From: Jiella sonneratiae
GTDB taxonomy: Bacteria; Pseudomonadota; Alphaproteobacteria; Rhizobiales; Rhizobiaceae
Length of the DNA: 64,000 bases
Direction: 5' to 3'
Assembly: GCF_017353515.1 (NCBI RefSeq)
Contig: NZ_JAFMPY010000005.1
Location: forward strand, 124,001 to 188,000
The notes under the pieces are model-generated. The model had not been told where the DNA came from, ran no database searches, and saw only the letters and a list, made by a program, of their open reading frames with translations. Below are positions 37,631 through 53,064 of the stretch, in pieces; positions within the stretch are counted from its first letter, which is position 1, and every line of letters begins with the position of its first letter. A program made the position numbers and the translations under genes.

Positions 37631-37840
37631 GGGTACTCTCCTTTGTCGCATCTGCGACGACTGGGCAGGGGTGAGACCGCCTGCTCGTGACGGATTCGGA
37701 AGGCTCTGGTCCGAATTCGGCGACGATCCCTGATCAGTTCGGGTGGCTGAATGATGGCAGGAATACGGTCATATTTTCACTGTTGCCCTTTGGCCTCACT
37801 TGGCGCCCGGTCGCGCCGGGAATGGCCGATTCCTCGCCCC

Positions 37841-37884
37841 TAACCCTTCATATTTTCATAAAATTTTTGGTGAATGAAGGATTA
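37841..37884. repeat. AT-rich imperfect palindrome upstream of the porin gene
   Basis: TAACCCTTCAT (37841-37851) pairs with ATGAAGGATTA (37874-37884) with one mismatch around a T/A-rich 22-nt loop. It could be a regulator site or the stem of a small RNA. Confidence 0.45.
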
Positions 37885-38083
37885 AACGAGGAGTTTCATG
37901 GGTTTACGACTATGGCAGAAATGTGGGGACTAAATTCCCATGCGTAAGAGTTAATGCATTGCGGCGATCGACCTTGACGGCCGTGCCGGCGGCCTGTGAA
38001 GGCCGGCAAGCCCCGCGGCGGCGGGGCAGCGGAGCGGCGCGGGGTGCGTTCGCCCGGCACATTGGATTCGTTCGAAACTCTGA

Positions 38084-38113
38084 TTGCCAAGCCGGGGCTT
38101 CGCCCAATATGGT
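38084..38113 (+). promoter_or_regulatory. Candidate promoter of the cytochrome c gene
   Basis: TTGCCA at 38084 and TATGGT at 38108 are 18 bp apart, ending about 55 bp before the ATG. It is a by-eye sigma-70-type match. Confidence 0.35.
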
Positions 38114-38167
38114 CGTCCCAGTGGGTGCTGGACCAACCTCTCCAACATCACACGAAAGGGAGGACAC

Positions 38168-38614
38168 ATGCGTAAGGTCAGTCTCGTCATCGCCGGCACG
38201 GCGCTGCTTTTCGCCGCCGGGGCGGCATCGGCTCAGGACATGGGTGATCCTGCGGCCGGCGAGAAGGTTTTCAACAAGTGCAAGGCCTGCCACGCCATCG
38301 GCGAGGGCGCCAAGAACAAGATCGGCCCCGAACTCAACGGCATCGTCGGCGACAAGCCGGGCGCCGGCCGCGGCGGCTACAGCTTCTCCAAGCCGTTCCA
38401 GGAATGGGCCTCCGACAAGAAGGCCTGGAACGAGGAACTGCTGACGACGTGGATTTCCGATCCGCGCGGCACCGTCAAGGGCACCAAGATGGCCTTTGCC
38501 GGTCTCAAGAAGCCCGACGAGTTGAAGAACGTCATCGCCTATCTGGCGAGCTTCGACGAGCAGGGCGGCAAGCAGGATCCCGTTGAGGCCCTGAAGGCTG
38601 CCGCGGCGAGGTGA
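38168..38614 (+). CDS. Periplasmic class I cytochrome c
   Basis: This small soluble electron carrier has 148 residues. A signal peptide (MRKVSLVIAGTALLFAAGAA, cut after ASA) is followed by a single haem site CKACH, the ENKIGPELNGIVGDKPG-like segment seen here as KNKIGPELNGIVGDK, and an axial Met in KGTKMAFAGLKK. It is of the cytochrome c2/c550 type. Its partner oxidase or dehydrogenase is not in the window. A GGGAGG ribosome-binding site precedes the ATG and a terminator follows. Confidence 0.92.
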   Translation: MRKVSLVIAGTALLFAAGAASAQDMGDPAAGEKVFNKCKACHAIGEGAKNKIGPELNGIVGDKPGAGRGGYSFSKPFQEWASDKKAWNEELLTTWISDPRGTVKGTKMAFAGLKKPDELKNVIAYLASFDEQGGKQDPVEALKAAAAR

Positions 38615-38655
38615 CCGAAGGCCCGGGGCGAACCAGCCGCCGGGCAGCTTTTTAA

Positions 38656-38691
38656 AAAAGGGCGGGCCGCCGGGGGGCGGGCCGCCCTTTT
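38656..38691 (+). terminator. Intrinsic terminator after the cytochrome c gene
   Basis: AAAAGGGCGG pairs with CCGCCCTTTT, with an extended GC-rich inner stem (one mismatch) and a closing T-run. It lies about 40 bp after the stop. Confidence 0.8.
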
Positions 38692-38773
38692 CAATGTCCG
38701 CTCGCCGTCGACGGGTCGGGCGGCCGGGACTTCCGGCGCCGTTCCGCGCCGGCGCCATCCCGTTCGCCGGGCG

Positions 38774-39718
38774 TCAGACGACGCGGCTGATCAGCGGCTC
38801 GCCGCGCAGATGGGCGACGAGGTTGCGCACCACCAGACGGCCCATGGCCGCGCGGGTCTTGTGGGTCGCCGAGCCCTGATGCGGCAGGAGCACGACGTTT
38901 TCGAGGGCGCGCAGGCGCTCCGGCACCTTCGGCTCCTCGGCGAAGACGTCGAGGGCGGCGCCGCCGAGGCCGCCGGTCTCGAGAAGCTCGATCATCGCCG
39001 GTTCGTCGACCAGCGAGCCGCGCGCGACGTTGACGAGCTTGCCCTTCGGCCCGAGCGCCGTCAGCACGGCGCGGTCGACGAGACCCTTGGTCTCGGCCGA
39101 GCCCGGCGCGATCACCACCAGCCAGTCGACGGCGGCGGCCATTTCGGCAAGGTCCGGATAGTGCGGAAAGGGGACGTGCTCCTGCCGCGTGCGGCCGTGA
39201 TAGACCACCTCCATGTGAAAGGCCTGGGCGAGCCGGGCGATCGCCTTGCCGATCCGGCCGAGGCCGAGGATGCCGACGCGGCTGCCGGTGAGTTCGTCGG
39301 TCAGCGCGAACGGCCCTTCCGCCTCCCAGCGCCCCTGCCGCACGTAGCGGTCGGCCTGGGGCAGGCGGTGGGCGAGCGCCAGCATCAGGCCGAGCGTCAC
39401 CTCGGCGACGCAGTCGTTGAGGACGTCGGGCGTATTGGTGACGGCGACGCCGTGCTCCTTCGCCGCCTCGACGTCGACCGCGTCGTAGCCGACGCCGAAG
39501 GAGGCGATCAGCTCCAGCTTCGGCAGCGCCGCGATCATCTCGCGCGAGGCGCCGTGATGGCCGCCCGTCGCGACGAAGCGCGTGGTCGGGGCGAGGCTTT
39601 CAAGCAGCGCCGGCTTGTCCTTCGCCTCGAAATAGCGGTGCAGGGTGAACTCCTTCTCCAGCGCCGCGGTGACGGGCTCGGCGTAGGGGCAGACCTGCAG
39701 GAGATCGGGTTTGGCCAT
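38774..39718 (-). CDS. D-isomer-specific 2-hydroxyacid dehydrogenase
   Basis: This NAD(P)-dependent 2-hydroxyacid dehydrogenase of 314 residues is close to glyoxylate/hydroxypyruvate reductases. The Rossmann motif is VGILGLGRIGKAIARL, the catalytic Arg is in LVNVARGSLVDEP, the Glu in VFAEEPKVP and the His in LLPHQGSATHKTR. It is the last gene of the minus-strand tct unit, 110 bp after tctA. It could reduce glyoxylate or hydroxypyruvate produced by this island, or act in a C1 pathway; which one is not decided by sequence. Confidence 0.9.
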   Translation of the reverse strand: MAKPDLLQVCPYAEPVTAALEKEFTLHRYFEAKDKPALLESLAPTTRFVATGGHHGASREMIAALPKLELIASFGVGYDAVDVEAAKEHGVAVTNTPDVLNDCVAEVTLGLMLALAHRLPQADRYVRQGRWEAEGPFALTDELTGSRVGILGLGRIGKAIARLAQAFHMEVVYHGRTRQEHVPFPHYPDLAEMAAAVDWLVVIAPGSAETKGLVDRAVLTALGPKGKLVNVARGSLVDEPAMIELLETGGLGGAALDVFAEEPKVPERLRALENVVLLPHQGSATHKTRAAMGRLVVRNLVAHLRGEPLISRVV

Positions 39719-39828
39719 GAAAAGACGGTTCCTTCGTGGTTCGGGCGAGCGATCCGGCGGGCCCGCGACGGGCGAGGGCGCTCCGCCGGCCGGCGCCGGA
39801 CGGTGCGGGCACTGCCCTGGACGGCTTG

Positions 39829-41331
39829 TCACGCCGCGGGCACGGCGCCCGGCCGGCCACGGCGAATCGCCAGCATGATAAGCGGGATCGACCAGATGGC
39901 GATGGTGAAGATCCCGAGACCGGCGGCGATCGGCCGTTCGAAGAAGGCGAGGAAGCTGCCGTCGGCCTTGATCATCGAGGTGACGAAGTTCTGCTCCAGC
40001 ATCGGGCCGAGGACGAGGCCGAGGATCGCCGGGGCGATCGGAATGTCGTTCTCCTCCATCAGGAAGCCGACGATGCCGAAGACCAGCATCAGGACGATGC
40101 CGAAGGGCGAGTTGTTGATGGCGAAGGAGCCGACGATGCAGAACATCAGGATGATCGGCATCAGCACGCGGGCCGGAATCGACAGGATGGTGCGGGCGGC
40201 CTTGATCGCCACCCAGCCGAAGGGCAGCATGATGAGATTGGCGAGAAAGAAGACGATGAACACCGCATAGATCAGCTGTGGCTGGTTGATGAAGATCGTC
40301 GGTCCCGGATTGAGGCCCTTCACATAGAGGACACCGATGACGATGGCGGTGATCGAATCCCCGGGAATGCCGAAGACGAGGGCGGGGATCCAGGCGCCGC
40401 TGACGGCGCCGTTGTTCGAGGCGCCCGCCTCGACGATGCCCTCGACGTGGCCGGTGCCGAACTTCTCCTTCTGGCGGGAGAACTTCTTGGAGATCGCATA
40501 GGAAATCCATGCGGCGATGTCGGCGCCCGCACCCGGCAGCGCGCCGATCGCCGTGCCGGTGATGCTGCCGCGCAGCGCCTGCAGCGGATAGCGCCGCATG
40601 TTGTCGAGCTGGCGGGTGAAGATGCCGGCGCGGCCGCCCTTTTCCACCGCCGGCATGTCGGCGCCGGCGGCGACCGAGCGCAGCACCTCGGAAATGGCGA
40701 AGAGGCCGATCATCGCCGGGATGAACTGGATGCCGGCGAGCAGCTCGACATTGCCGAAGGTGTAGCGCGGCTGGCCGGCCGGATTGTCGATGCCGACGGT
40801 GGCGGCGAAGAGGCCGATGATCAGCGAGATCATGCCGCGCGGCACCGAGCCCGGCGAGACGAAGATCGCGCAGGAGAGGCCGAGCACCACCAGCCAGAAA
40901 TATTCGAAGGACGAGAATTTCAGCGCGATGTCGGCGAGGATCGGCGAGGCGGTGACGAGGACGATGGTGCCGAAGATGCCGCCGATCGCCGAAAACACCA
41001 GCGAGGCGCCGAGCGCTTCCTCCGAGCGGCCCGAGCGGGTCATCCGGTAGGCGTCCTCGACATAGGCGGCGCTCGCCGGCGTGCCGGGCATTCTGAGGAG
41101 CGAGCCCGGAATGTCGCCGGCGAAGATCGCCATCGCCGTCGCCGTGACGATCGCGGCGATCGCCGGCACCGGCTCCATGAAGAAGGTGACCGGCACGAGC
41201 AGCGCCGTCGCCATCGTCGCCGTGAGGCCGGGAATCGCCCCGACGAACATGCCGAAGGCCGCCGAGGCGGCGATGACCATCAGCACATAGGGCTGGAAGA
41301 CGAGGGCGAAGGCTTCGGAGACGACGGACAT
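39829..41331 (-). CDS. tctA: Tripartite tricarboxylate transporter, large permease TctA
   Basis: TctA is the large inner-membrane subunit (500 residues, about 11-12 helices) of a secondary transporter that uses a periplasmic binding protein. Family marks are GAIPGLTATMATALLVPVTF, IFAGDIPGSLLRMPGTPASA and the repeated GALPGAGADIAAWISYAISK half. It lies eight bases after tctB and is co-transcribed. The substrate is a carboxylate, probably a sugar acid given the surrounding enzymes. Confidence 0.94.
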   Translation of the reverse strand: MSVVSEAFALVFQPYVLMVIAASAAFGMFVGAIPGLTATMATALLVPVTFFMEPVPAIAAIVTATAMAIFAGDIPGSLLRMPGTPASAAYVEDAYRMTRSGRSEEALGASLVFSAIGGIFGTIVLVTASPILADIALKFSSFEYFWLVVLGLSCAIFVSPGSVPRGMISLIIGLFAATVGIDNPAGQPRYTFGNVELLAGIQFIPAMIGLFAISEVLRSVAAGADMPAVEKGGRAGIFTRQLDNMRRYPLQALRGSITGTAIGALPGAGADIAAWISYAISKKFSRQKEKFGTGHVEGIVEAGASNNGAVSGAWIPALVFGIPGDSITAIVIGVLYVKGLNPGPTIFINQPQLIYAVFIVFFLANLIMLPFGWVAIKAARTILSIPARVLMPIILMFCIVGSFAINNSPFGIVLMLVFGIVGFLMEENDIPIAPAILGLVLGPMLEQNFVTSMIKADGSFLAFFERPIAAGLGIFTIAIWSIPLIMLAIRRGRPGAVPAA

Positions 41332-41339
41332 CGATCGGC

Positions 41340-41813
41340 CTACCAGAGGAAACCGAGGAATTCGCTGCGCGGCAGCGGCACCAAAAGCAGTCGGCCGAAG
41401 GCCTGCTGGATGACGACGCAGGCGACGACCGAGACGAGGAGGGCGGTCAGCGGCCGGGTGCGCAGCGTCAGCATCAGGACGACCATGACGACCAGCGAGG
41501 CCGGCACGAAGCCGATCGCCGGCGCCGCGACGATGTAGAAGACGATCAGCGCCAGCGCCACGGCGACCGAGACAAGCGACCGCCGCGAGCGGACCCAGGC
41601 GGCGAGTTCGAGCCGCGGCATGCGCGTCCCGGCGATCGCTGCCTTGGCGATCATGAACAGGCCGAGGCAGCCGGCGAAGATTGCGATCGCCCGGGGCATC
41701 GTCCCGGCACCGTAGGACTGGCCGGGGATGTCGGTGAAGCCGAGGGCCGACACCCAGATCGCGACGCCGCCGCAAAACACCAGCAGGCCGAGGAGGAGAT
41801 CGTTGAATTTCAT
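41340..41813 (-). CDS. tctB: Tripartite tricarboxylate transporter, small permease TctB
   Basis: TctB is the small four-helix permease subunit, 157 residues. The chain starts MKFNDLLLGLLVFCGGVAIW and has hydrophobic segments at about 7-27, 42-60, 80-100 and 105-140. TctB sequences are poorly conserved; the assignment rests on size, topology and position between tctC and tctA. A palindromic repeat separates it from tctC. Confidence 0.87.
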   Translation of the reverse strand: MKFNDLLLGLLVFCGGVAIWVSALGFTDIPGQSYGAGTMPRAIAIFAGCLGLFMIAKAAIAGTRMPRLELAAWVRSRRSLVSVAVALALIVFYIVAAPAIGFVPASLVVMVVLMLTLRTRPLTALLVSVVACVVIQQAFGRLLLVPLPRSEFLGFLW

Positions 41814-42123
41814 CGGATTTCGTCCGTGGCTGCGGCGTGATCGACAAGCTCGCTCAGGAGGTCTCGGCGAGGCACCCCCTCTGCCTGCCGGAATCTCCCC
41901 CGCAAGGGGAGAGATCAGTCGCTCGATCGAAGCCAGCGCCCCGGAATCGAGCTATTCCGGTCTCGATGCGACGTCGAACCATCGGCGAGACGCAGGCGAA
42001 AGAGTCGATCTCCCCCCTTGCGGGGGAGATGTCCGGCAGGACGAAGGGGGGTGCCTGTCGCAATCGCCCGAGACGACCGCCGGAAAAGCGAGGCGCCCGA
42101 AGGCGCCCCGCCGCATCGGCCCT
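41814..42123. other. Intergenic region tctB-tctC occupied by a palindromic element
   Basis: The 310 bp between tctC and tctB hold repeat copy C (41874-42052) and nothing else recognisable. Since both genes are needed for one transporter, the element probably sits within the transcript and could form a strong structure in the mRNA. Confidence 0.7.
41874..42052. repeat. Palindromic element, copy C
   Basis: Arms at 41874-41916 and 42007-42052 are inverted relative to each other and match copies A, B and D. The inner 90 bp are unrelated to the other copies apart from short stretches near the arms. Confidence 0.92.
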
Positions 42124-43110
42124 CTACTGCTTGGCGAGCCCGGCCTTCTGCATGACCTCGCCGAGCGACTTGTCGTCCTCGGCGACGATCTTCGTCGCCT
42201 CGTCGCCGGCCGCCCAGCGCACGCCGAAGCCGCGCTCCTTCATGAAGCTCTGATACTCTTCGGAATCATAGGCCTTCTTGACGGCGTCCTCGAGCTTGGC
42301 CCTGACGTCGTCCGGCAGCCCGTCCGGCGCGACCACCGCCCGCCAGACCGCCAGCGTCCAGTCCGAGCCGGTTGCTTCCTTGAGGGTCGGAACGTCGGGG
42401 AACAGCGCCTGGCGGTCGTCGGACATCGAGGCGAGGGGACGGACCTTGTCCGCCTCGATCATCGAGCGGCCCTCGGCGAGCGAGGAGGGCACGATGTCGA
42501 CCCCGCCCGCGACCATGTCGGTGATGCCGGCGGCAGCGCCCTGGCTCGGCACGAAGGTGACCTGGTCCGGCGGCAGGCCTTCCGAAAGCATCCAGCCGGC
42601 GAGGCCGAGATGCCAGATGCCGCCCTGGCCGGTGCCCGACGCCTTGAAGGTGCCCTTCGGCTCGGACTTGATCTTCTCGAGCAGCTGCTTGGCGGTCTCG
42701 TAGTCGGAATCGGCCGAGACCATCACGCCGCCCGGATCGGCATTGACCAAGGCGAGGATGTCGTAGTCCTTGTAGGTGAGGTCGGTCAGGCCCTGCCAGT
42801 GCATCATGTCGATCTCGATCGTCATGATGCCGAGGGTGTAGCCGTCCGGCTCGGCATTGGCGATGGCGCTGTGGCCGACGACGCCCGACCCGCCGGTCCG
42901 GTTGACGACGTTCACCGGCTGGCCGAGCACCTCCTGCAGCTGCGAGGCGATGACGCGGCCCACCGCATCGGTGCCGCCGCCCGCGCCCCAGGGCACGATC
43001 ATCTGGATCGGCCGGCTCGGATAGTCGTCGGCGGCCCGGGCCGGCGCCGCGAACGCGGCGGCGGCGAGGGCGAGCGCCGCGCTGGCGGCAAGAAGCGAAC
43101 GTCTGTGCAT
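42124..43110 (-). CDS. tctC: Tripartite tricarboxylate transporter substrate-binding protein TctC
   Basis: This periplasmic solute-binding protein of the TctC/Bug family has 328 residues. A signal peptide (MHRRSLLAASAALALAAAAF, cut near ARA) leads to DDYPSRPIQMIVPWGAGGGT, the family's N-terminal motif with its carboxylate-binding loop. The VNRTGGSGVVGHSAIANAEP segment and the conserved Asp loop follow. It is first in the tctC-tctB-tctA order. A GTATAC palindrome about 150 bp upstream is a likely operator. Confidence 0.93.
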   Translation of the reverse strand: MHRRSLLAASAALALAAAAFAAPARAADDYPSRPIQMIVPWGAGGGTDAVGRVIASQLQEVLGQPVNVVNRTGGSGVVGHSAIANAEPDGYTLGIMTIEIDMMHWQGLTDLTYKDYDILALVNADPGGVMVSADSDYETAKQLLEKIKSEPKGTFKASGTGQGGIWHLGLAGWMLSEGLPPDQVTFVPSQGAAAGITDMVAGGVDIVPSSLAEGRSMIEADKVRPLASMSDDRQALFPDVPTLKEATGSDWTLAVWRAVVAPDGLPDDVRAKLEDAVKKAYDSEEYQSFMKERGFGVRWAAGDEATKIVAEDDKSLGEVMQKAGLAKQ

Positions 43111-43258
43111 GATGCGGTTTCCTCCCGATGGTGGCCGATCGCCGCCCCGAGCGACCTTGGTCCCTGCGGTGACCCCCGCGCCTCCCAGCGGCGGGCGCCC
43201 GGCCGAAGCCGGCGACGATGCAATTCCGCCGGCACTATTCCGGCCGGGACCTGAACTG

Positions 43259-43274
43259 TCAACGTATACGTCTC
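43259..43274. promoter_or_regulatory. Candidate GntR operator upstream of tctC
   Basis: The palindrome ACGTATACGT at 43262-43271 lies in TCAACGTATACGTCTC. It is almost identical to the site at 45443-45458 and shares GTATACGTC with the one at 51636-51651. GTATAC-centred sites are typical of GntR/FCD regulators, and one is encoded at 45491-46294. Confidence 0.7.
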
Positions 43275-43398
43275 AAATCACTCGCTGTGACTTATCGTTC
43301 GCGACGCTTGCGACCGGACAGTTCCGGCAATCGCGACAGGGCGTCCGAAGGCGCCGCGTCGTTGATGCATCGGCCGGCCGTCGGCCGGGGCGGGACCG

Positions 43399-44247
43399 TC
43401 ACGGCCGGGCGGCGACGACCGTCTGCTTCTGTTCGCCGAGCCCGTCGATGCCGAGGGTCATGACGTCGCCGACCTTCAGATATTGCGGCGGCTTCATGCC
43501 CATGCCGACGCCCGGGGGCGTGCCGGTGGTGATGACGTCGCCCGGCATCAGCGTCATGTACTGCGAGACGTAGGAGACGAGATGCGGCAGGTTGAAGATC
43601 AGCGTCGAGGAATTGCCGGTCTGGCGGCGCTCACCGTTGACGTCGAGCCACATGCCGAGATCGTGCGGATCGGCGACCTCGTCGCGGGTCACCAGCCAGG
43701 GGCCGAGCGGCCCGAAGGTGTCGTGGCTCTTGCCCTTGGTCCACTGGCCCTGGCGCTTGGTCTGGAAGGTCCGCTCGGAAACGTCGTTCATCACCGCAAA
43801 GCCGGCGACGTAGTCCATCGCCTCGGACTGCGAGACGTATTTCGCCCGCGAGCCGACGATCACCGCAAGCTCGACCTCCCAGTCGAGGGCGTCGGAGCCG
43901 CGCGGCTGCTCGACGTCGTCGTTCGGCCCGCAGAGCGCGTTGATCTGCTTGGTGAAGATGATCGGCTCGGTCGGCGGCTGGGCGCCGGTCTCGGCCGCAT
44001 GGTCGGAATAGTTGAGGCCGATGCACAGGATCTTCGAGACGCCGGCGACCGGCGCGCCGTAGCGCGGATTTCCCTCGACCAGCGGCAGCGAGGCCGGGTC
44101 GATCGCCTTCAGCGCCTGCAGGCCCTTCGGCGAGAGGACGTCGCCTGAAATGTCGGCGACATGGCCGGAGAGATCGCGGATCCTGCCTTCGGCATCGATC
44201 ATGCCGGGCTTTTCCTGGCCGAGCGGGCCGGTGCGTACGAGTTTCAT
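43399..44247 (-). CDS. Fumarylacetoacetate hydrolase family protein, probable diketo-acid hydrolase
   Basis: This FAH-fold enzyme of 282 residues has the core motifs ILCIGLNYSDHAAETG, IIFTKQINALCGPNDDVEQP, DWEVELAVIVGSRAKYVS (metal-binding Glu pair), KSHDTFGPLGPWLVT and PGDVITTGTPPGVGMGMKPP. Family members in sugar-acid routes hydrolyse 2,4-diketo-3-deoxy acids to pyruvate plus a 2-hydroxyacid; others are annotated as ureidoglycolate lyase. The flanking SDR and IlvD dehydratase favour the diketo-acid role. It follows the SDR at 44599 on the same strand, about 350 bp away with a long inverted repeat between. Confidence 0.88.
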   Translation of the reverse strand: MKLVRTGPLGQEKPGMIDAEGRIRDLSGHVADISGDVLSPKGLQALKAIDPASLPLVEGNPRYGAPVAGVSKILCIGLNYSDHAAETGAQPPTEPIIFTKQINALCGPNDDVEQPRGSDALDWEVELAVIVGSRAKYVSQSEAMDYVAGFAVMNDVSERTFQTKRQGQWTKGKSHDTFGPLGPWLVTRDEVADPHDLGMWLDVNGERRQTGNSSTLIFNLPHLVSYVSQYMTLMPGDVITTGTPPGVGMGMKPPQYLKVGDVMTLGIDGLGEQKQTVVAARP

Positions 44248-44598
44248 GGTGTCCTTTCGGGGGTGATGGGTTGGGGGAAGTGTCGGTCAGGATGCACTTG
44301 CGCGTGGGTGAGGGGGGTGAGCGTGAAGCGTCGTCATTCTCGGGCCCCGTCCCGAGAATCCAGGGGCGGTTGCCGCAGCATTCACCGCTTCCGCTCCCTG
44401 CTGCTGGAGCCGATCGTGCCCGACGATCTCTGGATTCTCGGGACGGGGCCCGAGAATGACGAAGCGTTGAGGCTGACGCCTCGCTTTTCTGCGCCTCGCT
44501 GGGTCGAAACAGGCATCTGCGCCATCGCGCTGCGGCGGGGCCTTGTCCTCCGACCCCACGGTCTGAACGACGCTCTCCGCCACGACGCAACCATCGCC
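44248..44598. other. Intergenic region carrying a long perfect inverted repeat
   Basis: These 351 bp separate the FAH gene from the SDR upstream of it on the same strand. Apart from the inverted repeat at 44331-44461 nothing coding was found. Confidence 0.65.
44331..44461. repeat. Perfect 32-bp inverted repeat, REP-like pair
   Basis: Bases 44331-44362 and 44430-44461 are exact reverse complements, separated by 67 bp. Complementarity extends a few bases further outward with one mismatch. Each arm is itself a palindrome (ATTCTCGGG / CCCGAGAAT). The outer CTTCGTCAT resembles the end of the repeat at 48775, suggesting a related family. Confidence 0.9.
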
Positions 44599-45357
44599 TC
44601 AATACACCGCGCGGCCGCCGGAAATGTCGAAGACGGCGCCGGTCGAGAACGAGCAGTCCTCCGAGGCGAGCCAGGCGATCATCGCCGCGACCTCCCGCGG
44701 CTCGAGGAACCGGTTCATCGGGATCTTCGACAGCATGTAGTCGATGTGCTCCTGGCTCATCTGGTCGAAGATCTGGGTGCGCGCCGCCGCCGGCGTGATG
44801 CAGTTGACGAGGACGTTCGAGCCGGCGAGCTCCTTGCCGAGCGACTTGGTGAGGCCGATCAGCCCGGCCTTCGAGGCGGAATAGTGCGAGGCGTTGGGAT
44901 TGCCCTCCTTGCCGGCGATCGAGGCGACGTTGACGATCCGCCCGTAGCCGGCCTCGATCATCGAGGGCACCAGGGCGCGGGCAGTCAGATAGGGCCCGAC
45001 GAGATTGACCTCGACGGTCTTGCGCCAGACGGAGGGATCGAGCTCCCAGGTCTTGCCGTTGCCGCCGGTGATCCCGGCATTGTTGACGAGGATGTCGACC
45101 GCACCGCCCGCGAGCGCCGCGACGGCGGCGGCGCCGACCGACGTCTCGTCGGTGAGTTCGACGACGGTGCCGAGGGCCTTGCCGCCTCCGGCGGTTTCGG
45201 CAAGGCCGGCGACCGCCTCCTCGATCGCCGCGGCGTCGACGTCCCAGAGGATCACCGAGGCGCCGCTTTCGATCAGCCGCTCGGCCGTCGCGAGGCCGAT
45301 GCCGCGGGCGCCGCCCGTGACGACGGCCCGCCGGCCGGAAAGATCGATCCGGTTCAT
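44599..45357 (-). CDS. SDR family oxidoreductase (2-keto-3-deoxy acid dehydrogenase-like)
   Basis: This classical SDR of 252 residues has the cofactor motif AVVTGGARGIGLATAERL, LVNNAGITGGNGKTWELD, the catalytic Ser in VNVASIAGKEGNPN and HYSASKAGLIGLTKSLGKEL. Its ending is SFSTGAVFDISGGRAVY. Position beside an FAH hydrolase fits oxidation of a 2-keto-3-deoxy sugar acid at C4, as in L-rhamnonate and L-fuconate routes, but this is inference. A GTATAC operator-like site lies about 90 bp upstream. Confidence 0.87.
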   Translation of the reverse strand: MNRIDLSGRRAVVTGGARGIGLATAERLIESGASVILWDVDAAAIEEAVAGLAETAGGGKALGTVVELTDETSVGAAAVAALAGGAVDILVNNAGITGGNGKTWELDPSVWRKTVEVNLVGPYLTARALVPSMIEAGYGRIVNVASIAGKEGNPNASHYSASKAGLIGLTKSLGKELAGSNVLVNCITPAAARTQIFDQMSQEHIDYMLSKIPMNRFLEPREVAAMIAWLASEDCSFSTGAVFDISGGRAVY

Positions 45358-45442
45358 CCTGTTGCTCTCCCTTCTCGTCGCTTTCGGCCCGGCATGATGG
45401 CCCGGGGCCCGTCGTCCGGCATCGCACAGGGCCGTCCGACAA

Positions 45443-45458
45443 TCAACGTATACGTCGC
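45443..45458. promoter_or_regulatory. Candidate GntR operator upstream of the SDR-FAH unit
   Basis: TCAACGTATACGTCGC contains the palindrome ACGTATACGT at 45446-45455. It matches the tctC site at 14 consecutive bases. It lies between the gntR 3' end and the SDR start. Confidence 0.7.
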
Positions 45459-45490
45459 GGTCATCCCGGTCCGCCCCACGCTGCCCGCAA

Positions 45491-46294
45491 TCAGCCGCCG
45501 GCGGGAAACCCGCCGGCCTGACGCCGCAGCAGGAACAGCGCCGTGCGGTCGGCGCGCTCGCGGTGCTGGGCGTGCAGATGGGTGGCGAGGCGCTCGTCGC
45601 GACCCCGGATCGCCTCGAAGATCGCCCGGTGCTCGCGGTCGGACTGGGTCGGCCGCGGCCTCAGCTTCACGATCGCCATGTGGGCGCGGTACTGCTGGTC
45701 CCAGCACAGTCTGAGCGCCCCCTGCAGCCGGCGATTGCCGCACAGGCCGACGAGTTCGGAATGGAAGACGTTGTCGAGATGCGACCACTGCACGATGTCG
45801 CCGCGCGCCGTCTCCCGCTCCATCTGGTCGAGCAGGCCGGCGAGGCGGCGGGTCTCGTCCTCGCCGAGGCCGCGCCGCGCCAGAAGCCCGGCGGCCTTGA
45901 CCTCGAGCGGCGACAGGACGTCGTAGATCTGGGCGAGATCGTCGAGCGACTGCGACTTGACGGTGATGCCGTGGCGCGGCCGCACCTCGACGAGGTCCTC
46001 TTCCTCGAGCCTTATCAGCGCCTCGCGCACCGGCGTGCGCGACAGGCTGAGAAGCGAGGCGACCTCGGCCTCCAGCAGCTTGGTTCCCGGCGGCAGGCGG
46101 CCTTCGAGAATGCGGAACTTCAGGTCGTGATAGGCCCGGTCGCGGGCCGGCATGCGGGCGACGCCGGCGAGCGTCGGCCGCGGCCGCGAACCGCCCGGCG
46201 CCGGCTGCTGCCGGCGCTGGCGCGCCCCGTCCGCGGCGCCATCGTCGCGCGGGGCGGCCGCCTCGTCGCGATCTCCGGGCTTCATCTCCGACAT
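45491..46294 (-). CDS. GntR family transcriptional regulator with FCD domain
   Basis: This DNA-binding repressor or activator of the FadR subgroup has 267 residues. After an Arg/Pro-rich N-terminal 45 residues comes the winged helix (AYHDLKFRILEGRLPPGTKL, LLSLSRTPVREALIRLEEED). The all-helical FCD domain with its metal or ligand site (HLDNVFHSELVGLCGN, DREHRAIFEAIRGRDERLAT) follows. FCD regulators usually sense a pathway carboxylate. It is embedded in the sugar-acid island, and three near-identical GTATAC sites nearby are its obvious candidate targets. Confidence 0.92.
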   Translation of the reverse strand: MSEMKPGDRDEAAAPRDDGAADGARQRRQQPAPGGSRPRPTLAGVARMPARDRAYHDLKFRILEGRLPPGTKLLEAEVASLLSLSRTPVREALIRLEEEDLVEVRPRHGITVKSQSLDDLAQIYDVLSPLEVKAAGLLARRGLGEDETRRLAGLLDQMERETARGDIVQWSHLDNVFHSELVGLCGNRRLQGALRLCWDQQYRAHMAIVKLRPRPTQSDREHRAIFEAIRGRDERLATHLHAQHRERADRTALFLLRRQAGGFPAGG

Positions 46295-46346
46295 GGTGCC
46301 ATCACGCCCGCATTCCCGCGGTCTCCCTGCCCCTCGCGTCCCGCCT

Positions 46347-47243
46347 CTACGCCTTGCCCCGCCCGACGCCGTTCAGTTCCGCGACGATGTCGGCGAGGGT
46401 CGGCAGGTAGCCGCTGCCGTGGCCGGTCGCCTCGGCCGTCGCCAGCGTGTTCTTGACCACCGACGAGACGTTGCTCGCGATGCCGCTCTCGTTGGCGAGC
46501 GACACCAGATAGCGCATGTCCTTGTGGGCGTTTCTCAGGGTGAACTTGTGGGCGTTCGGATCGCCGCCGACGACGTAGTTCATGAAGGTCTGGTAGAAGC
46601 CGCAGTCCATCCGCCCGCCGCCGATCACCGAATGGAAGACCTCCGCCGAGACGCCGCCCTTTGCGCCGATGGCGAGCGCCTCGGAATAGATCGCGGCATA
46701 GCCGAGCGAGAGGAAGTTGTTGAGGAGCTTCATGGTGTGGCCGGCGCCGGTCTCGCCGACCCTGACCACCTTGCCGCCGATGACGTCGAGAAGCGGCTTC
46801 ACCTTTTCGAACACCGCCTCGCTCGCCCCCACCATGACGTCGAGATTGCCGTCCCAGGCCTCCTTCGGCGTGCGCGACAGCGGCGCGTCGACGAGGCTGA
46901 TGCCGCTCGCATGGCAGCGCTCGGCAAGGCTGCGGGTCGAGACCGGATTGGCGGTGGAGGTGTCGACGATGGTCGCGACCGGTCCCTTTGCCGAGAGGAT
47001 CTGCCCGACCACCTCTTCGACCTCGGGACTGCCGGGCAGGCAAAGGAAGACGATCTTCGCGGTGGAAGCGATGGCCGCGACGCCGTCCGCCTCGGATGCT
47101 CCACGTGAAACAAGGTCGTCGATCGGCTCGCGGTTGCGATGGGCGAGGACGCTCAGCGGGTAGCCGGCCTCGACGAGGTTCTTCGCCATGCCGTGGCCCA
47201 TCAGGCCGGCGCCGATGAATCCGATCCGGGGTTTGTCGGTCAT
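46347..47243 (-). CDS. NAD(P)-dependent oxidoreductase, 3-hydroxyisobutyrate/6PGDH family
   Basis: This beta-hydroxyacid dehydrogenase of 298 residues has the cofactor motif IGFIGAGLMGHGMAKNLVEA, the substrate loop LVDAPLSRTPKEAWDG and the catalytic Lys in GAGHTMKLLNNFLSLG. Related enzymes act on threonate, tartronate semialdehyde or 3-hydroxyisobutyrate. Next to a DenD-like gene, a sugar-acid role such as L-threonate oxidation is plausible. The separate mmsB at 54451 makes a second valine-pathway enzyme less likely. A degenerate parS-like sequence lies in its codons. Confidence 0.88.
   Translation of the reverse strand: MTDKPRIGFIGAGLMGHGMAKNLVEAGYPLSVLAHRNREPIDDLVSRGASEADGVAAIASTAKIVFLCLPGSPEVEEVVGQILSAKGPVATIVDTSTANPVSTRSLAERCHASGISLVDAPLSRTPKEAWDGNLDVMVGASEAVFEKVKPLLDVIGGKVVRVGETGAGHTMKLLNNFLSLGYAAIYSEALAIGAKGGVSAEVFHSVIGGGRMDCGFYQTFMNYVVGGDPNAHKFTLRNAHKDMRYLVSLANESGIASNVSSVVKNTLATAEATGHGSGYLPTLADIVAELNGVGRGKA
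47097..47112. promoter_or_regulatory. Degenerate parS-like sequence
   Basis: TGCTCCACGTGAAACA matches the 16-bp parS consensus at 14 positions, with both mismatches in the left half. It lies about 45 kb from parAB, inside a coding sequence. It may be a weak ParB site or chance. Confidence 0.35.
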
Positions 47244-47567
47244 GGGGTGGCTCTCCGGTGGTTGCTTCTTGTGCTTGCTTCTCGTCGATCGACAATCCTG
47301 CGTCCGACTTCGAAAGGTCGTGCGAGGCACCCCCCTCTGCCTGCCGGCATCTCCCCCACAAGGGGGAGATCGGTGTGAGGAAGGCTAGCGCCCTATTTGT
47401 CGAACGTCTGTGCATATCGCGGTTCATGACAGGCGAGGGTGAACGCAACCGCAGGATCGATCTCCCCCCTTGTGGGGGAGATGTCCGGCAGGACAGAGGG
47501 GGGTAACCCGGCGCGATGCCTGCCCGGAAAGGCGCGGCGGCGCGCGCGCCGGCTGACGTCCGTCCGC
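47244..47567. other. Intergenic region holding palindromic copy D
   Basis: The 324 bp between the DenD-like gene and the 6PGDH-family gene are mostly repeat copy D (47329-47504). No gene or operator-like GTATAC site was seen, consistent with the two genes sharing one transcript. Confidence 0.65.
47329..47504. repeat. Palindromic element, copy D
   Basis: Arms at 47329-47371 and 47459-47504 are inverted and match copies A-C, with the CACAAG/CTTGTG loop variant also found in copy B. Confidence 0.92.
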
Positions 47568-48551
47568 TCAAGCACCCCGTCCCCGCCCTGCCTCGTCGGC
47601 GATGTGGGCGCGGACGATGTCGGCGAAGCTCGCATCGGCCGAGAAGCCGACGCTTTCGGCGCGGCTCGCATCGAAGGTCCGCGGCCAGCCGGCGACGATC
47701 TTCTCGATTACCGCGTCGGGCTCGCGGCGGATGCGTGCCGCCACCTCGTCGCCGGCGACCTCGCGCAGCGCCTCGATCATCTCGGCGATGGTCACCGACA
47801 GGCCCGGCATGGTCAGGCAGCGGCGCGACCCGAGCACGTCGGTGTCCATGGTCGCGGCATGCATTAGGAAGCCGACCGCCGAGGCCGGGCTCGCCACCCA
47901 GTGCCGCACGTCGTCGGCGACCGGCAGGATCGCCTCCTCGCCGGCGAGCGGCTCGCGGATGATGCCCGAGAAGAAGCTCGAGGCGGCCTTGTTCGGCTTG
48001 CCGGGCCTGACGACGATGGTCGGCAGGCGGATGCCGACGCCGTCGACGAAGCCCTTGCGGCTGTAGTCGTTGAGAAGCAGCTCCGAGATCGCCTTCTGGG
48101 TGCCGTAGCTGGTCAGCGGCGCCGAGAGGAAGGTCTCGCCGATCGGCTCCTCGAAGGGCGCGCCGAAGACCGCGATCGAGGAGGTGAAGACGAGGCGCGG
48201 GCGATAGTTGTCGCCCTGGCTGCGGATCGCCTCGAGCAGGTTGGTCATGCCGCCCTGATTGATGCGGTAGCCCTTGTCGAAATCCGCCTCGGCCTCGCCG
48301 GAGACGATCGCCGCGAGGTGGAAGATCATGTCCGGACGCCGGGCGACGAGCGCCTCGACCGTCGCCTCGTCGGAAATGTCGCCGGCCTCAGCCGTCAGCG
48401 CGATGGTCTCCGGAGCGGCGATCGCCGGCTCGACGACGTCGAAGGCGTCGATCGCGGTGATCGTCTCGCCAGCGATCTTTCGTTCCGCGACGAGCCGGTC
48501 GATCAGCCGCCGCCCCACCATGCCGGCCGCGCCGAGCACCAGTATCCGCAT
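47568..48551 (-). CDS. NAD-dependent epimerase/dehydratase family protein, D-erythronate dehydrogenase-like
   Basis: This extended SDR of 327 residues has the cofactor motif ILVLGAAGMVGRRLIDRLVA, DMIFHLAAIVSGEAEADFDK, the SSIAVFG Ser and the YGTQKAISELLLNDYSRKG active-site pair. Sequence features match DenD-type D-erythronate dehydrogenases. The usual partners of DenD, a DUF1537 sugar-acid kinase and an isomerase, are absent, so the natural substrate may be a different sugar acid. Confidence 0.85.
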   Translation of the reverse strand: MRILVLGAAGMVGRRLIDRLVAERKIAGETITAIDAFDVVEPAIAAPETIALTAEAGDISDEATVEALVARRPDMIFHLAAIVSGEAEADFDKGYRINQGGMTNLLEAIRSQGDNYRPRLVFTSSIAVFGAPFEEPIGETFLSAPLTSYGTQKAISELLLNDYSRKGFVDGVGIRLPTIVVRPGKPNKAASSFFSGIIREPLAGEEAILPVADDVRHWVASPASAVGFLMHAATMDTDVLGSRRCLTMPGLSVTIAEMIEALREVAGDEVAARIRREPDAVIEKIVAGWPRTFDASRAESVGFSADASFADIVRAHIADEAGRGRGA

Positions 48552-48631
48552 GTCGTTCCTCCCTTCTCGTGACGCTCATCTCCCCCGAAGGGATCCATGG
48601 CGTCTATGAACCGCGCAAGAGGTGCGCCGCT

Positions 48632-48675
48632 ATCCCCTCTGGGCTGCCGCCCATCTCCCCCGCAAGGGGGAAGAT
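48632..48675. repeat. Palindromic element, single arm (copy E)
   Basis: One arm with the inner ATCTCCCCC-GCAA-GGGGGAAGAT hairpin and the CCCCTCTGGG edge is present. The partner arm is missing, so this is a decayed or partial element. Confidence 0.8.
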
Positions 48676-48774
48676 CCGATCGCGTTCGTCATCGTCGCCT
48701 CGTCGGCTGCGACGACGACGCTCCGGCAGCCGTCTCAACGCCTGGCCTTTCCGGAAAAGGAAACGGCCCCAACG

Positions 48775-48809
48775 CTTCGTCATCCCAGGTCAAGCCCGGG
48801 ACGACGAAG
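48775..48809. repeat. Hairpin repeat related to the second cobN palindrome
   Basis: CTTCGTC at 48775-48781 pairs with GACGAAG at 48803-48809. The inner part (ATCCCAGGTCAAGCCCGGGA) is a one-base variant of the 28858-28878 palindrome. Confidence 0.75.
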
Positions 48810-48902
48810 GTGAGGGGCCTTCGTCCAATCCGGAAAGTCCGATCATCCTCCTCGAACTGTCGAGACCTCATCCGGCCCCTTCAGGCCCACAAAAATACCG
48901 TC

Positions 48903-49655
48903 CTACAGCGACCACCCGCCGTCGATGAGCTGCGTCGTCCCCGTCGTGAAGGCGCTCTCGTCGGACGCGAGATAGACCGCGAGATGGGCGATCTCGGCGG
49001 CCCGGCCGATGCGGCCCATGGGCTGGCGCTCGACGAACATCGCGCGCGCCTTGTCGGCGCCGCCGACGCTCTTGCCGAGTTCGGCGATGCGCCCGTCGAG
49101 CGACGGCGATTCGATCGTGCCGGGGCAGATGGCGTTGCAGCGGATGCCCCGGCTGATGAAGTCGACGGCGACGGAGCGGGTGAGGCCGATGACGGCCGCC
49201 TTGGTCGCCATGTAGACGTAGCGGTTCGGCGCCGCTTTGATCGAGGATGCGGCGGACGACATGTTGATGATCGAGCCGCCGCCCTTTTCCAGCATGCGCG
49301 GCAGAAGCGCCGAGATCGTCCGGTGCATCGCCTTGACGTTCAGCTCGAAGGAGAAGTCCCAGGCCTTCTCGTCGCAGTCGAGAACGGTGCCGTGATGGAC
49401 GTAGCCGGCGCAGTTGAACAGGATGTCGGGCGTCTCGATGCCGGCGAGATAGCTCTCGACGGCGGCGGTGTCGGTGACGTCGAGGGCGGCGAGGCTGGCC
49501 TTGCCGGCGTGGTCGAGGCCGGTCAGCTTCTGGGCGTCGAGGTCGGTGGCGTAGACCGTCGCGCCCTCGGCGAGGAAGGCTTCGGCGACCGCCCGGCCGA
49601 TGCCCTGTCCGGCGGCGGTGCACAGGGCGATCTTGCCTTCGAGGCGTCCTGTCAT
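48903..49655 (-). CDS. SDR family oxidoreductase, BDH2/2-keto-3-deoxy-L-fuconate dehydrogenase-like
   Basis: This SDR of 250 residues resembles the DHRS6/BDH2 group and bacterial 2-keto-3-deoxy-L-fuconate 4-dehydrogenases. Key segments are ALCTAAGQGIGRAVAEAFLA, the shared LFNCAGYVHHGTVLDCDEKA, INMSSAASSIKAAPNRYVYM, the Y-x3-K in YMATK, and the ESAFTTGTTQLIDGGWSL end. It lies about 100 bp downstream of the IlvD dehydratase on the same strand. Oxidation of the dehydratase product at C4 is the natural inference. Confidence 0.9.
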   Translation of the reverse strand: MTGRLEGKIALCTAAGQGIGRAVAEAFLAEGATVYATDLDAQKLTGLDHAGKASLAALDVTDTAAVESYLAGIETPDILFNCAGYVHHGTVLDCDEKAWDFSFELNVKAMHRTISALLPRMLEKGGGSIINMSSAASSIKAAPNRYVYMATKAAVIGLTRSVAVDFISRGIRCNAICPGTIESPSLDGRIAELGKSVGGADKARAMFVERQPMGRIGRAAEIAHLAVYLASDESAFTTGTTQLIDGGWSL

Positions 49656-49758
49656 TGCGGCATTCCTTCACTCTCGTTGGCGCCGGCGCCGGCCCTGCGG
49701 CGGGCCTGCCCGGACGCCCGGTGGCGGCGTGTGCCGCCCGATCGGCCGGAGGATCCGG

Positions 49759-51579
49759 TCAGTGGTTGTCGCGCGGCACCTTCGGCATGTCGCCATGGGC
49801 GCCGCCCTGGGCGAGGCGCTGGTAGGTGACGGCCGGCTGCAGCACCATGCCGGTCTCGAACTGCGAGACGATGCCGCGCTGGATCTCCTGCCAGGGCGTC
49901 TGGTTGGCGGGGAAGTGGTAGCCGCCCCCGGCCTCCAGCGCGCTCCGGCGCGATTTCAGCTCGTCCTCGGAAATCAGGATGTCGGCGGTGCCGCGGCCGA
50001 TGTCGATACGCACCTTGTCGCCGGTCCGGAGCAGCGCCAGGCCGCCGCCTGCCGCCGCCTCCGGCGAGGCGTTGAGGATCGAGGGCGAACCCGACGTGCC
50101 GGACTGACGGCCGTCGCCGATGCAGGGCAGCTCGGTGATGCCGCGCTTGATGAGGTAATCGGGCGCGCGCATGTTCACCACCTCGGCCCCGCCCGGATAG
50201 CCGATCGGCCCGGCGCCGCGCATGAACAGCACCGAGTTCTCGTCGATTTCGAGCGCCGGATCGTCGATGCGGTGGTGATAGTCCTCCGGCCCGTCGAAGA
50301 CGATCGCCTTGCCCTCGAAGGCCATCGGATCGGCGGGGTTCTCCAGATAGCGCTTGCGAAAACCCGGCGAGACCACCGACAGCTTCATGATCGCCGAGGA
50401 GAAGAGGTTGCCCTTCAGCACCCGGAAGCCGGCATGGGGCTTCAGCGGATTGTCGAAGCGCCGGATGACGTTCTCGTCCTCGATGACGGCGCCGCGATAG
50501 TTCTCGCCGACGGTCCGGCCGTTGACGGTCATCGCGGCTTCGTGGATCAGGCCCTTCTCGATCAGCTGGCCCATCACCGCCGGCACGCCGCCGGCATGGT
50601 AGTAGTCCTCGCCGAGATATTCGCCGGCCGGCTGCAGATTGACCAGAAGGGGGATCTCCTCGCCATAGGTCTGCCAGTCGTCGATCGTGAGCTCGACGCC
50701 GACGTGGCGGGCCAGCGCGTTGAGATGGATCGGCGCGTTGGTCGAACCGCCGATCGCCGAATTGACGCGGATGGCGTTGACGAAGGATTCGCGGGTGAGG
50801 ATGTCGGTCGGCTTGAGATCCTCGTGCACCATTTCGACGATGCGCTTGCCGGTGAGGTAGGAGATCTCCTGGCGGTCGCGATAGGGCGCGGGGATCGCCG
50901 CCGAGCCCGGCAGCTGCATGCCCAGCGCCTCGGCCAGCGAATTCATCGTCGAGGCCGTGCCCATGGTGTTGCAGTAGCCCGTCGAGGGCGCCGAGGAGGC
51001 GACCAGCTTGACGAAGCCCGGATAGTCGATCTCGCCGGCGGCCATCATCTCGCGGGCCTTCCAGACGATGGTGCCCGAGCCGGTGCGCTGGCCGCGGAAC
51101 CAGCCGTTCAGCATCGGGCCGACGGAGAGTGCGATGGCCGGGATGTTGACGGTCGCCGCCGCCATCAGGCAGGCCGGCGTCGTCTTGTCGCAGCCGATGG
51201 TCAGCACCACGCCGTCGAGCGGATAGCCGTAGAGCAGTTCGACAAGGCCGAGATAGGCGAGGTTGCGGTCGAGCGAGGCGGTCGGGCGCTTGCCGGTCTC
51301 CTGGATCGGATGCACCGGAAACTCGACCGCGATGCCGCCGGCCTCGCGGATACCCTCGCGTACGCGCTTCGCCAGCTCCAGATGGTGGCGGTTGCAGGGG
51401 GAGAGGTCGGAGCCGGTCTGGGCGATGCCGATGATCGGCTTGCCGGACTGCAGCTCGTCCTGGCTGAGGCCGAAATTCAGATAGCGCTCCAGATACAGCG
51501 CCGTCATGTCGGGATTGTCGGGATTGTCGAACCACGCGCGCGATCGGAGCGGGGTTTTCAGCGAAGTGCGATCGGTCAT
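49759..51579 (-). CDS. IlvD/Edd family sugar-acid dehydratase
   Basis: This iron-sulfur aldonate dehydratase of 606 residues converts a sugar acid to its 2-keto-3-deoxy derivative. Candidate cluster cysteines are in [26 protein letters not shown] and [32 protein letters not shown] is the C-terminal family block. Length and motifs place it with arabonate/xylonate-type dehydratases rather than IlvD of branched-chain synthesis. The start at 51579 ([11 protein letters not shown]) is chosen; 23 upstream codons are unlike the family. An operator-like GTATAC site lies about 60 bp upstream. It opens the largest unit of the sugar-acid island. Confidence 0.92.
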
Positions 51580-51635
51580 TGCGGCTCCCGGCCCGTCTGC
51601 CCTCTCGGTGGGCGACGGCCTTCTCTTGTCTCGAA

Positions 51636-51651
51636 ACGACGTATACAATAA
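51636..51651. promoter_or_regulatory. Candidate GntR operator upstream of the sugar-acid dehydratase gene
   Basis: On the minus strand this reads TTATTGTATACGTC; it shares GTATACGTC with the sites before tctC and before the SDR. It lies about 60 bp before the start codon, where a repressor would block transcription. Confidence 0.65.
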
Positions 51652-51864
51652 CCGCCGGGCAGCGCAAAGCCTTCCGCGCGTCCAGGCGCCGCGTCGGGCC
51701 CGCAGCGGCGCGGCGGCGGGCCGAACCCGCCTCCTGCGCGGGCGCTGCGGAGCGGGCCGCTCGCGCCCCCTGCCGTTGCAACCTGCGCATACGCAAGGAG
51801 CGGCCTTTCTTCGAGACGTGCCAAGAGCCGGGTCCGGATCGGCGTTTCCCCGAGGGATCGGACG

Positions 51865-52260
51865 TCACAGGCTGCCGAAGACGAGGCCCTGGCCGAGCAG
51901 CACGACCAGCCAGTGGCCGGCCTCGATGGCCGTCAGGTCCCAGCCGAAGCCGAGGAAGCGCTGGCTGACCGCCACGGTGGTCGCCACGAAGCCGAGCCAG
52001 AGGGCGAGTGCCGAGAGGACGGCGTCCGGCAGCGAGACGGTCGGAAAATGCGCGAGAAGCAAGGCGAAGACCGCCGCCATGACGAATTCGGACAGGGCGG
52101 CGAGGGCGATGTTGCCCGTCCGCGCGGCGGTGCCGTGATCTTCGGTACGGGCCGCGCGCTGCCAACTGCGGGCGAAGGCCGTATACCAGATCGTCCCCAC
52201 GATCATCGAGACCACCGTCGCCAGGACGATGGCGAAAACATCGATCGCCGCCAGCGACAT
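51865..52260 (-). CDS. DUF1761 family membrane protein
   Basis: The 131-residue protein has four hydrophobic helices. The IVGTIWYTAFARSWQRAARTE segment after helix one and the C-terminal GHWLVVLLGQGLVFGSL are typical of DUF1761. Function is unknown. It starts at 52260 (MSLAAIDVFAIVLATVV). It is not obviously co-transcribed with the neighbouring genes. Confidence 0.8.
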   Translation of the reverse strand: MSLAAIDVFAIVLATVVSMIVGTIWYTAFARSWQRAARTEDHGTAARTGNIALAALSEFVMAAVFALLLAHFPTVSLPDAVLSALALWLGFVATTVAVSQRFLGFGWDLTAIEAGHWLVVLLGQGLVFGSL

Positions 52261-52383
52261 CGGTCCCCGGTCCCCTCGCTGCCCCCGGATTCGACCATGC
52301 TGAAGCCATGCTCGTTCGTCAACCGAGCATGACCGTTTCGACATGCAATGCGAATGGCAGGCCCGCCATTGCCCGTGTCGGCG

Positions 52384-53064
52384 CTAGGCCGGCCGTCGCC
52401 AGCCCCAGACGTCGACCCGCTTGATCTCCTGGTCCTCCAGCGCCCGGCTGACGGCGACGCGATATTCGGCGCGGTGGACGAGATGCGGGCGCGGCAGATA
52501 GGCCCGGCCGGGATCGCCGAGGAGGATCTCGACGCCCGCGGCCGCGAGCCGGTCGAACCAGGGAATGAGCGCCGCGGCCATCGCGCGGTCGTAGAAGACG
52601 TCGCCGGCAAGCAGGATGTCGGCCTCGACCGGCCCGCCGACGAGATCGTCACCGACAAAATCGAGGCGTTCGGAGGCTGCCTCCGGCGCAAGGTTCAGCG
52701 CCGCGTTCAGCCGCAAAGCGGTGGCGGCGAAGGGATCGACGTCGGCGGCGGCGACCCGCGCGGCGCCGGCACGGAGCGCAGCGATGGCGACGAGGCCGGA
52801 GCCGGTGGCGAAATCGACGACGGCGCGGCCGGCGACCGCCTCGGGATGGTCGAGGACGTAGCGGGCGAGGCCCTGGCCGCCCGCCCAGGCGAAGGCCCAG
52901 AAGGGCGGCGGCAGGCCGAGGGCTTCGAGCTCCGCCTCGGTCTTCAGCCAGATGTCGTGGGCCTCCGAGGCGACGTGGAGGCGGATCTCCGGCACGTGCG
53001 GCGGCGCGGCGACGGCGGTGTTTTCGAGGATGAAGGCCTTTGCCCGCAGGGGATCGAGTGTCAT
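52384..53064 (-). CDS. Class I methyltransferase, ETF-beta lysine methyltransferase (METTL20) homologue
   Basis: This SAM-dependent methyltransferase of 226 residues has features of the METTL20/PrmA-related group: PPPFWAFAWAGGQGLARYVL, VVDFATGSGLVAIAA (SAM loop), ADVDPFAATALRLNAALN, LLAGDVFYDRAMA and EILLGDPGRAYLPRP. Characterised members in animals and alphaproteobacteria methylate lysines of the electron-transfer flavoprotein beta chain. No etfAB lies in the window, so the target is inferred from family only. Confidence 0.82.
   Translation of the reverse strand: MTLDPLRAKAFILENTAVAAPPHVPEIRLHVASEAHDIWLKTEAELEALGLPPPFWAFAWAGGQGLARYVLDHPEAVAGRAVVDFATGSGLVAIAALRAGAARVAAADVDPFAATALRLNAALNLAPEAASERLDFVGDDLVGGPVEADILLAGDVFYDRAMAAALIPWFDRLAAAGVEILLGDPGRAYLPRPHLVHRAEYRVAVSRALEDQEIKRVDVWGWRRPA

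Follow-up and report, generated by a model that had tools for sequence, protein, structure and literature searches.

The window analyzed here is a 64,000-nucleotide stretch of the Jiella sonneratiae genome (contig NZ_JAFMPY010000005.1, positions 124,001 to 188,000); it carries an island of putative sugar-acid genes that includes gntR (45491–46294), a gene for a GntR-family regulator with an FCD domain. According to our analysis, the best explanation of the data as a whole, and one that we regard as quite probable, is that three GTATAC sites in the island are operators of this FCD/GntR protein, that the protein is a repressor, and that a fourth operator serves an unlinked ATP-binding cassette (ABC) importer operon. 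The shared operator is kept across relatives before the same genes, and among the genomes tested it stands before ugpC, the first gene of the importer operon, only where gntR is present. The sites, their conservation, their geometry, the gene linkage and the co-occurrence were all computed directly.

GTATAC sites in the island and its relatives

The first-pass annotation had described three near-identical GTATAC sites, two of them with 14 shared bases, and the sequences are as it claimed (Table 1): the sites ahead of tctC and SDR1 have 14 identical bases, TCAACGTATACGTC, in common. The three sites precede tctC, SDR1 and ilvD, all on the minus strand, and the GntR/FCD gene lies in the same cluster, which also agrees with that annotation. 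The motif GTATACGTC has three matches in the window, at 43264 (+), 45448 (+) and 51638 (−), with 0.03 expected from 100 shuffles, and GTATAC itself has four matches versus 0.57 expected. The fourth of these, at 52181, was rejected as an operator, since it lies inside a DUF1761 coding frame (51865–52344); the earlier statement that the intergenic DNA of the window holds no further copy therefore stands. A search of all 76 contigs of the genome (5.15 Mb) brought no flood of unrelated occurrences and returned four exact matches to GTATACGTC only, namely the three sites of the window and one at G000:C20:42002. When up to two mismatches to AACGTATACGTC were allowed, 154 matches were obtained versus 76 for the reversed control pattern, which is too many for the loose matches to be informative. 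A chance origin of the sites was rejected on the basis of the three matches against 0.03 expected and of their conservation in relatives. An RNA element was likewise rejected, with no Rfam match at the gathering threshold in 37000–53000.

Conservation was assessed in 15 annotated islands: that of the window, L056–L064 (seven Jiella, one record named Fulvimarina sp. and one named Aurantimonas sp.), and L135, L136 and L265–L267 from other genera. For each gene, the noncoding DNA upstream, at most 300 bp, was considered. Among the loci holding the respective gene, GTATAC occurs upstream of ilvD in 14/14, of tctC in 12/12 and of SDR1 in 10/14, and it was found in none of the 112 regions upstream of other island genes. 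A scoring matrix was trained on 36 island sites, whose own scores are therefore circular; the ugpC sites and five further islands (L331–L335, 99.5 kb) were kept outside the training. In these five islands, 14 hits scored 12 bits or higher, and every one of them is located before ilvD, SDR1 or ugpC. A held-out test drew on 27 of the 36 sites: the matrix was trained on two promoter types at a time, and in all three runs the omitted type ranked within the first three hits of the 64 kb. As a background, scores of at least 16 bits were reached at 10 of 792,217 positions in unrelated loci.

The proposed operator of the ABC importer operon and its co-occurrence with gntR

The copy of GTATACGTC at G000:C20:42002 lies 190 bp before a gene for a UgpC-type ABC-transporter ATPase, and ugpC is followed by genes for a solute-binding protein and two permeases of a sugar importer. 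Both the solute-binding gene and the ugpC operator are kept in all ten genus genomes. In nine of them the operator is 168–199 bp before ugpC, in surroundings that are otherwise poorly conserved. In the tenth, G009 (L173:4963), it stands about 0.7 kb upstream of ugpC, which would fit an insertion of DNA between the two. A degenerate second copy, most commonly CAAAGAATACGTTG, is found 16–33 bp before ugpC in the ten genomes; it scores at least 11 bits in six and 2.4–7.6 bits in the other four. In G035, G064, G143, G174, G488 and G531 this start-proximal copy reaches 16.3–20.2 bits. The centers of the paired sites are 145, 146, 146, 150, 150, 151, 154, 157 and 179 bp apart, and about 700 bp apart in G009.

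A prediction was written before the test, namely that a genome with an operator before ugpC encodes a GntR orthologue, and four positives and 11 negatives were named. Of 44 listed non-genus genomes with the ABC operon, 27 were tested; the scored region was the 260 bp before ugpC (fewer in two genomes), and a GntR match was defined by at least 57% identity. The best scores before ugpC fell at 13.0–22.1 bits in five genomes and at no more than 6.6 bits in 22. The GntR orthologue was present in 5/5 operator-bearing and 2/22 operator-free genomes. The other ten negatives were also scored before the gntR search, and G035 and G031 were known beforehand, which leaves 25 counted genomes with the orthologue in 4/4 versus 1/21 (Fisher p = 0.0004 with kinship ignored, a value that is too small because the four positives are related and two share a genus).

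The importer is also linked to the regulator gene physically. The solute-binding gene lies within 10 kb of gntR in seven non-genus genomes (G035, G064, G143, G174, G443, G488 and G531); the ABC operon and gntR are far apart on one contig in G532 and on different contigs in G031 and G444. In relatives the importer can stand beside the island, and in the genus Jiella it is located elsewhere yet has retained the operator. Linkage, together with the co-occurrence of gntR and the operator at a separate ABC operon, supports the probable GntR regulon proposed in the first-pass annotation.

Outside the obvious island and ugpC sites, GTATACRTYG was found at 26 places in the ten genus genomes, of which 20 were inspected. 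L231 corresponds to the ilvD operator of G009, which is located on another contig. Eight (L228, L229, L232, L234, L235, L237, L239 and L243, from seven genomes) represent one conserved coding stretch and were therefore rejected as operators. Outside the window, a xylose isomerase gene was recognized at G000:C2:37990 (L226:1491; TIGR02630, 669.9 bits against a cut-off of 533). GTATAC is found 35–36 bp before the start of this gene in 7/10 genus genomes (L226, L240 and L244 among the inspected places), and three of the sites score 16.6–21.7 bits with the island matrix; xylose isomerase is a possible fifth target, or the site is possibly only a −10 element. Two sites, each found in a single genome, are unproven as operators; they precede a gene of the DHDPS family (L233) and one for a gluconate 2-dehydrogenase subunit (L230). 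The remaining inspected places lie inside called frames, some with uncertain starts. A perfect palindrome, TTGACGTATACGTCAA (24.0 bits), was observed in J. flava at L174:4948 (G002:C4:44946), in the start region of divergent SDR/arginase-family frames; the other genus genomes did not show it in this form.

The proposed regulator, the island promoters and alternative explanations

Sites with GTATAC are known for UxuR/ExuR. The product of gntR has an N-terminal GntR winged helix (PF00392, 66.1 bits) and a C-terminal FCD domain (PF07729, 80.6 bits), both above the cut-off, and its best relative in the PDB is 6z74 (73.9 bits), which we take to be Atu1419 of Agrobacterium fabrum. Glu75, Arg86, Thr87 and Arg90 align, as counted by hand, with the identical Glu34, Arg45, Thr46 and Arg49 of Atu1419, so that Arg86 corresponds to the recognition-helix arginine that reads the G of GT..AC. 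PMC7797058 describes Atu1419 as an FCD/VanR repressor whose target ATGTATACAT covers −10 boxes and whose Arg45 reads the G; the protein forms a tetramer able to loop the DNA between two sites at a distance of 190 bp, and it also uses a degenerate site 109 bp away. The two systems share a short palindrome with a GTATAC core lying over −10 boxes, the character, proposed here, of a local catabolic repressor and a degenerate second site. They differ in their targets, which are hydroxycinnamic acid genes for Atu1419, and in the flanks of the core (AT...AT for Atu1419 versus CAAY...RTTG here); moreover, the tetramer and the loop were demonstrated for Atu1419, whereas both are hypothetical for the GntR protein of the island. 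The conserved sites also fit the operator consensus of the FadR subfamily, NyGTM-N0-1-KACNy (PMC4494728), and the recognition-helix arginine for G of that subfamily is found here as well; the accessible part of this source gives a general consensus and does not mention the present regulator. Within the open-licence literature, RegPrecise being outside the scope, we found no description of it.

The sites have a suggestive position at their promoters. At ilvD, the GTATAC core yields TATACG, 16 bases behind a TTG element; this likely promoter was read by eye and is absent from the output of the promoter scan. The −35 element TTGACA of tctC is formed by the right half of the palindrome there, with AATAGT 17 bases further; within 43000–52000 the scan reports this pair and no other, where 0.6 is expected. 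The pair is weak by itself, so that its weight comes from the recurrence of both elements in relatives. TTGATT, the right half of the SDR1 site, may likewise be a −35-like element. Binding at these places would block the polymerase, and the regulator therefore likely acts by repression.

A second site before ilvD is suggestive only: GCGTATGCGC-like DNA is found repeatedly in the genus at a distance of 142–166 bp from the operator, with scores of −5.1 to 9.2 bits, and sites of 14.4 and 13.0 bits are found 173 and 160 bp from the ilvD operator in G488 and G531. In the window, a TGCGTATGCGC-like near-palindrome with a low operator-matrix score was observed at 51780–51800, which places it some 146 bp upstream of the operator of ilvD; the relatives within the genus have similar DNA.

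The paired sites at ugpC are compatible with an Atu1419-like tetramer joining two operators; their spacings are not all whole helical turns, and looping thus gets no support from phasing. We put forward only tentatively a fuller scheme, in which the repressor would be a tetramer that forms loops, ugpC and perhaps ilvD would each have a strong operator paired with a weak one at a distance of about 150 bp, the start-proximal ugpC copy repeatedly having GAATAC or GGATAC for GTATAC, and two import systems (one unlinked in the genus), and possibly xylose isomerase, would be co-ordinated with the route III pathway considered below.

Besides the kinship of the positives in the co-occurrence test, several observations weigh against a GntR repressor acting at all these sites. 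The sites had been expected wherever the island is conserved; this held for ilvD and tctC in all loci and failed for SDR1 in 4/14, namely L062 (J. flava), where tctCBA is also missing at the island, and L265–L267. G031 and G444 hold gntR but no ugpC operator; in both, gntR is next to ilvD, few other island genes accompany the two, and the operator of ilvD is there. A further DNA contact of Atu1419, Gly66, corresponds to Arg107 in the alignment. Among nine loci with GntR homologues of 43–50% identity (L137–L139 and L268–L273), five (L268–L272) are without GTATAC, and each of the others has a single one: 82 bp before an SDR2 homologue in L137, in a gap between other genes in L138, away from gntR in L139, and away from the gntR and ilvD homologues in L273. 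The operator is thus a feature of close GntR orthologues (57% identity and up) and fades at 43–50%.

One further such point, the location of the ugpC GTATAC copy about 100 bp upstream of a promoter-like block rather than on it, would suit an activator that binds beside the −35 element and aids the polymerase, as would the center of the tctC palindrome just upstream of TTGACA. However, the ilvD operator covers the −10 element, and the second ugpC copy, the stronger one in the six genomes with 16.3–20.2 bits, lies just behind the promoter-like block; we consider activation unlikely. That the sites belong to another FCD/GntR regulator with the same core, the gntR of the island controlling something else, appears very unlikely. 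The genome contains 19 further GntR/FCD-like matches, and one of their neighborhoods (L009, C14) holds AATATCGTATACAATTTC with 16.6 bits; within 1.5 kb of the other 18, however, the best score is 13.8, while every operator-bearing island examined contains this gntR and the ugpC operator goes with its orthologue across genera. It is extremely improbable that GTATAC is only a part of core promoters kept for the polymerase, to which TATACG (ilvD) and TTGACA (tctC) would fit as −10 and −35, since the palindrome differs in position among promoters, extends past the hexamers on its other side and recurs off the promoter at ugpC, where its presence follows gntR.

Island genes and the proposed sugar-acid pathway

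The minus-strand genes of the island follow one another in the order ilvD, SDR2, denD, the 3-hydroxyisobutyrate-dehydrogenase-like gene and gntR; SDR1 and FAH; and tctC, tctB, tctA and the D-2-hydroxyacid dehydrogenase gene (Table 1).

Table 1. Candidate operators, promoter elements and genes of the island (window coordinates).
Feature	Position	Strand	Remarks
Candidate operator of the ilvD unit	51636..51651	-	ACGACGTATACAATAA, i.e. GTATACGTC on the minus strand; GTATAC core 51641-51646
Candidate operator of the SDR1-FAH unit	45443..45458	-	TCAACGTATACGTCGC; GTATAC core 45448-45453
Candidate operator of the tctC unit	43259..43274	-	TCAACGTATACGTCTC; GTATAC core 43264-43269
Likely ilvD promoter, TTGCGC-16-TATACG	51640..51667	-	-10 in operator
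tctC promoter-like pair, TTGACA-17-AATAGT	43234..43262	-	-35 overlaps operator
ilvD, IlvD/Edd-family sugar-acid dehydratase	49759..51579	-	
SDR2, homologue of L-2-keto-3-deoxyfuconate 4-dehydrogenase	48903..49655	-	
denD, D-erythronate dehydrogenase family	47568..48551	-	NF043036, 395 bits, cut-off 325
3-hydroxyisobutyrate / 2-hydroxy-3-oxopropionate dehydrogenase family	46347..47243	-	
gntR, GntR-family regulator with FCD domain, proposed repressor	45491..46294	-	Pfam PF00392, PF07729
SDR1, short-chain dehydrogenase	44599..45357	-	
FAH-family hydrolase, similar to 2,4-diketo-3-deoxy-L-rhamnonate hydrolase	43399..44247	-	NF053535, 440.9 bits, below cut-off 500; 8gsr
tctC, tripartite tricarboxylate transporter receptor	42124..43110	-	
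tctB	41340..41813	-	
tctA	39829..41316	-	
D-2-hydroxyacid dehydrogenase family	38774..39760	-	

The closest PDB entry to the IlvD dehydratase is 7m3k, named galactonate dehydratase (1155 bits), followed by 5oyn. SDR2 is closest to 8y11/8xwk, an L-2-keto-3-deoxyfuconate 4-dehydrogenase for which PMC11199699 gives D-2-keto-3-deoxypentonate as an additional substrate. The FAH hydrolase is closest to 8gsr, an L-2,4-diketo-3-deoxyrhamnonate hydrolase, with an NCBIfam score below the cut-off for that activity. Homologues of all three enzymes of route III (sugar-acid dehydratase, 2-keto-3-deoxy-acid 4-dehydrogenase and diketo-acid hydrolase) are therefore present in the island, which is predicted to encode a non-phosphorylative route of this kind with putative activities assigned by homology. 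In PMC6336799, route III has a dehydrogenase and a hydrolase step of this kind and leads to pyruvate plus glycolate or lactate. No lactonase family was found among the island genes scanned; SDR1 could be the sugar dehydrogenase of the first pathway steps, and the sugar acid itself may be brought in by the importers.

The likeness to the route III systems described there extends to the 4-dehydrogenase and FAH-type hydrolase homologues and, as also seen in PMC11199699, to the frequent clustering of the pathway genes with ABC importer and regulator genes. The dehydratase is of the IlvD/Edd type here versus a D-arabinonate dehydratase in PMC6336799, and the tct transporter and denD are extra relative to the route III described there.

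Some other features of the window were recorded. Behind the 2-hydroxyacid dehydrogenase gene lies a 282-aa minus-strand frame (37910–38758) with no Pfam or NCBIfam match and no match of at least 45% identity in the other 14 islands. A 36-nt inverted repeat, 97% complementary, is located between the FAH gene and SDR1 (44328–44363 and 44430–44465), and a palindromic repeat with the sequence ATCTCCCCCCTTGYGGGGGAGAT or a near variant of it occurs between genes at 28774, 30742, 42008, 47351 and 47460.

Overall, the following mechanism may be proposed, in which we infer the binding of the GntR protein to the sites, the repression, the inducer and the substrate. An FCD/GntR dimer would most likely bind the palindrome CAAYGTATACRTTG and repress by covering the −10 element of ilvD, the −35 element of tctC and the −35-like element of SDR1, with the fourth operator before the distant ABC importer operon and a weaker copy near the start of that operon, in most cases at a distance of about 150 bp. 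The repressor would presumably be released by a substrate or intermediate of the sugar-acid type, and the release would lead to joint expression of two importers together with the IlvD dehydratase, the SDR2 4-dehydrogenase and the FAH hydrolase, the product of the non-phosphorylative route being pyruvate plus a 2-hydroxy acid.

The type of regulator is already well known, and the present regulon would be a further example of it. It is a defined and testable one that comprises a single regulator gene, a single operator consensus and four promoters, of which one lies outside the island, so that the regulon would extend beyond the island to the ABC importer. Since this importer lies apart from the island in Jiella and yet has kept the operator, the case is suited to the study of a transporter that stays under its old switch. 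The importer would thereby be tied to the sugar-acid pathway, which narrows the candidate substrates for both.

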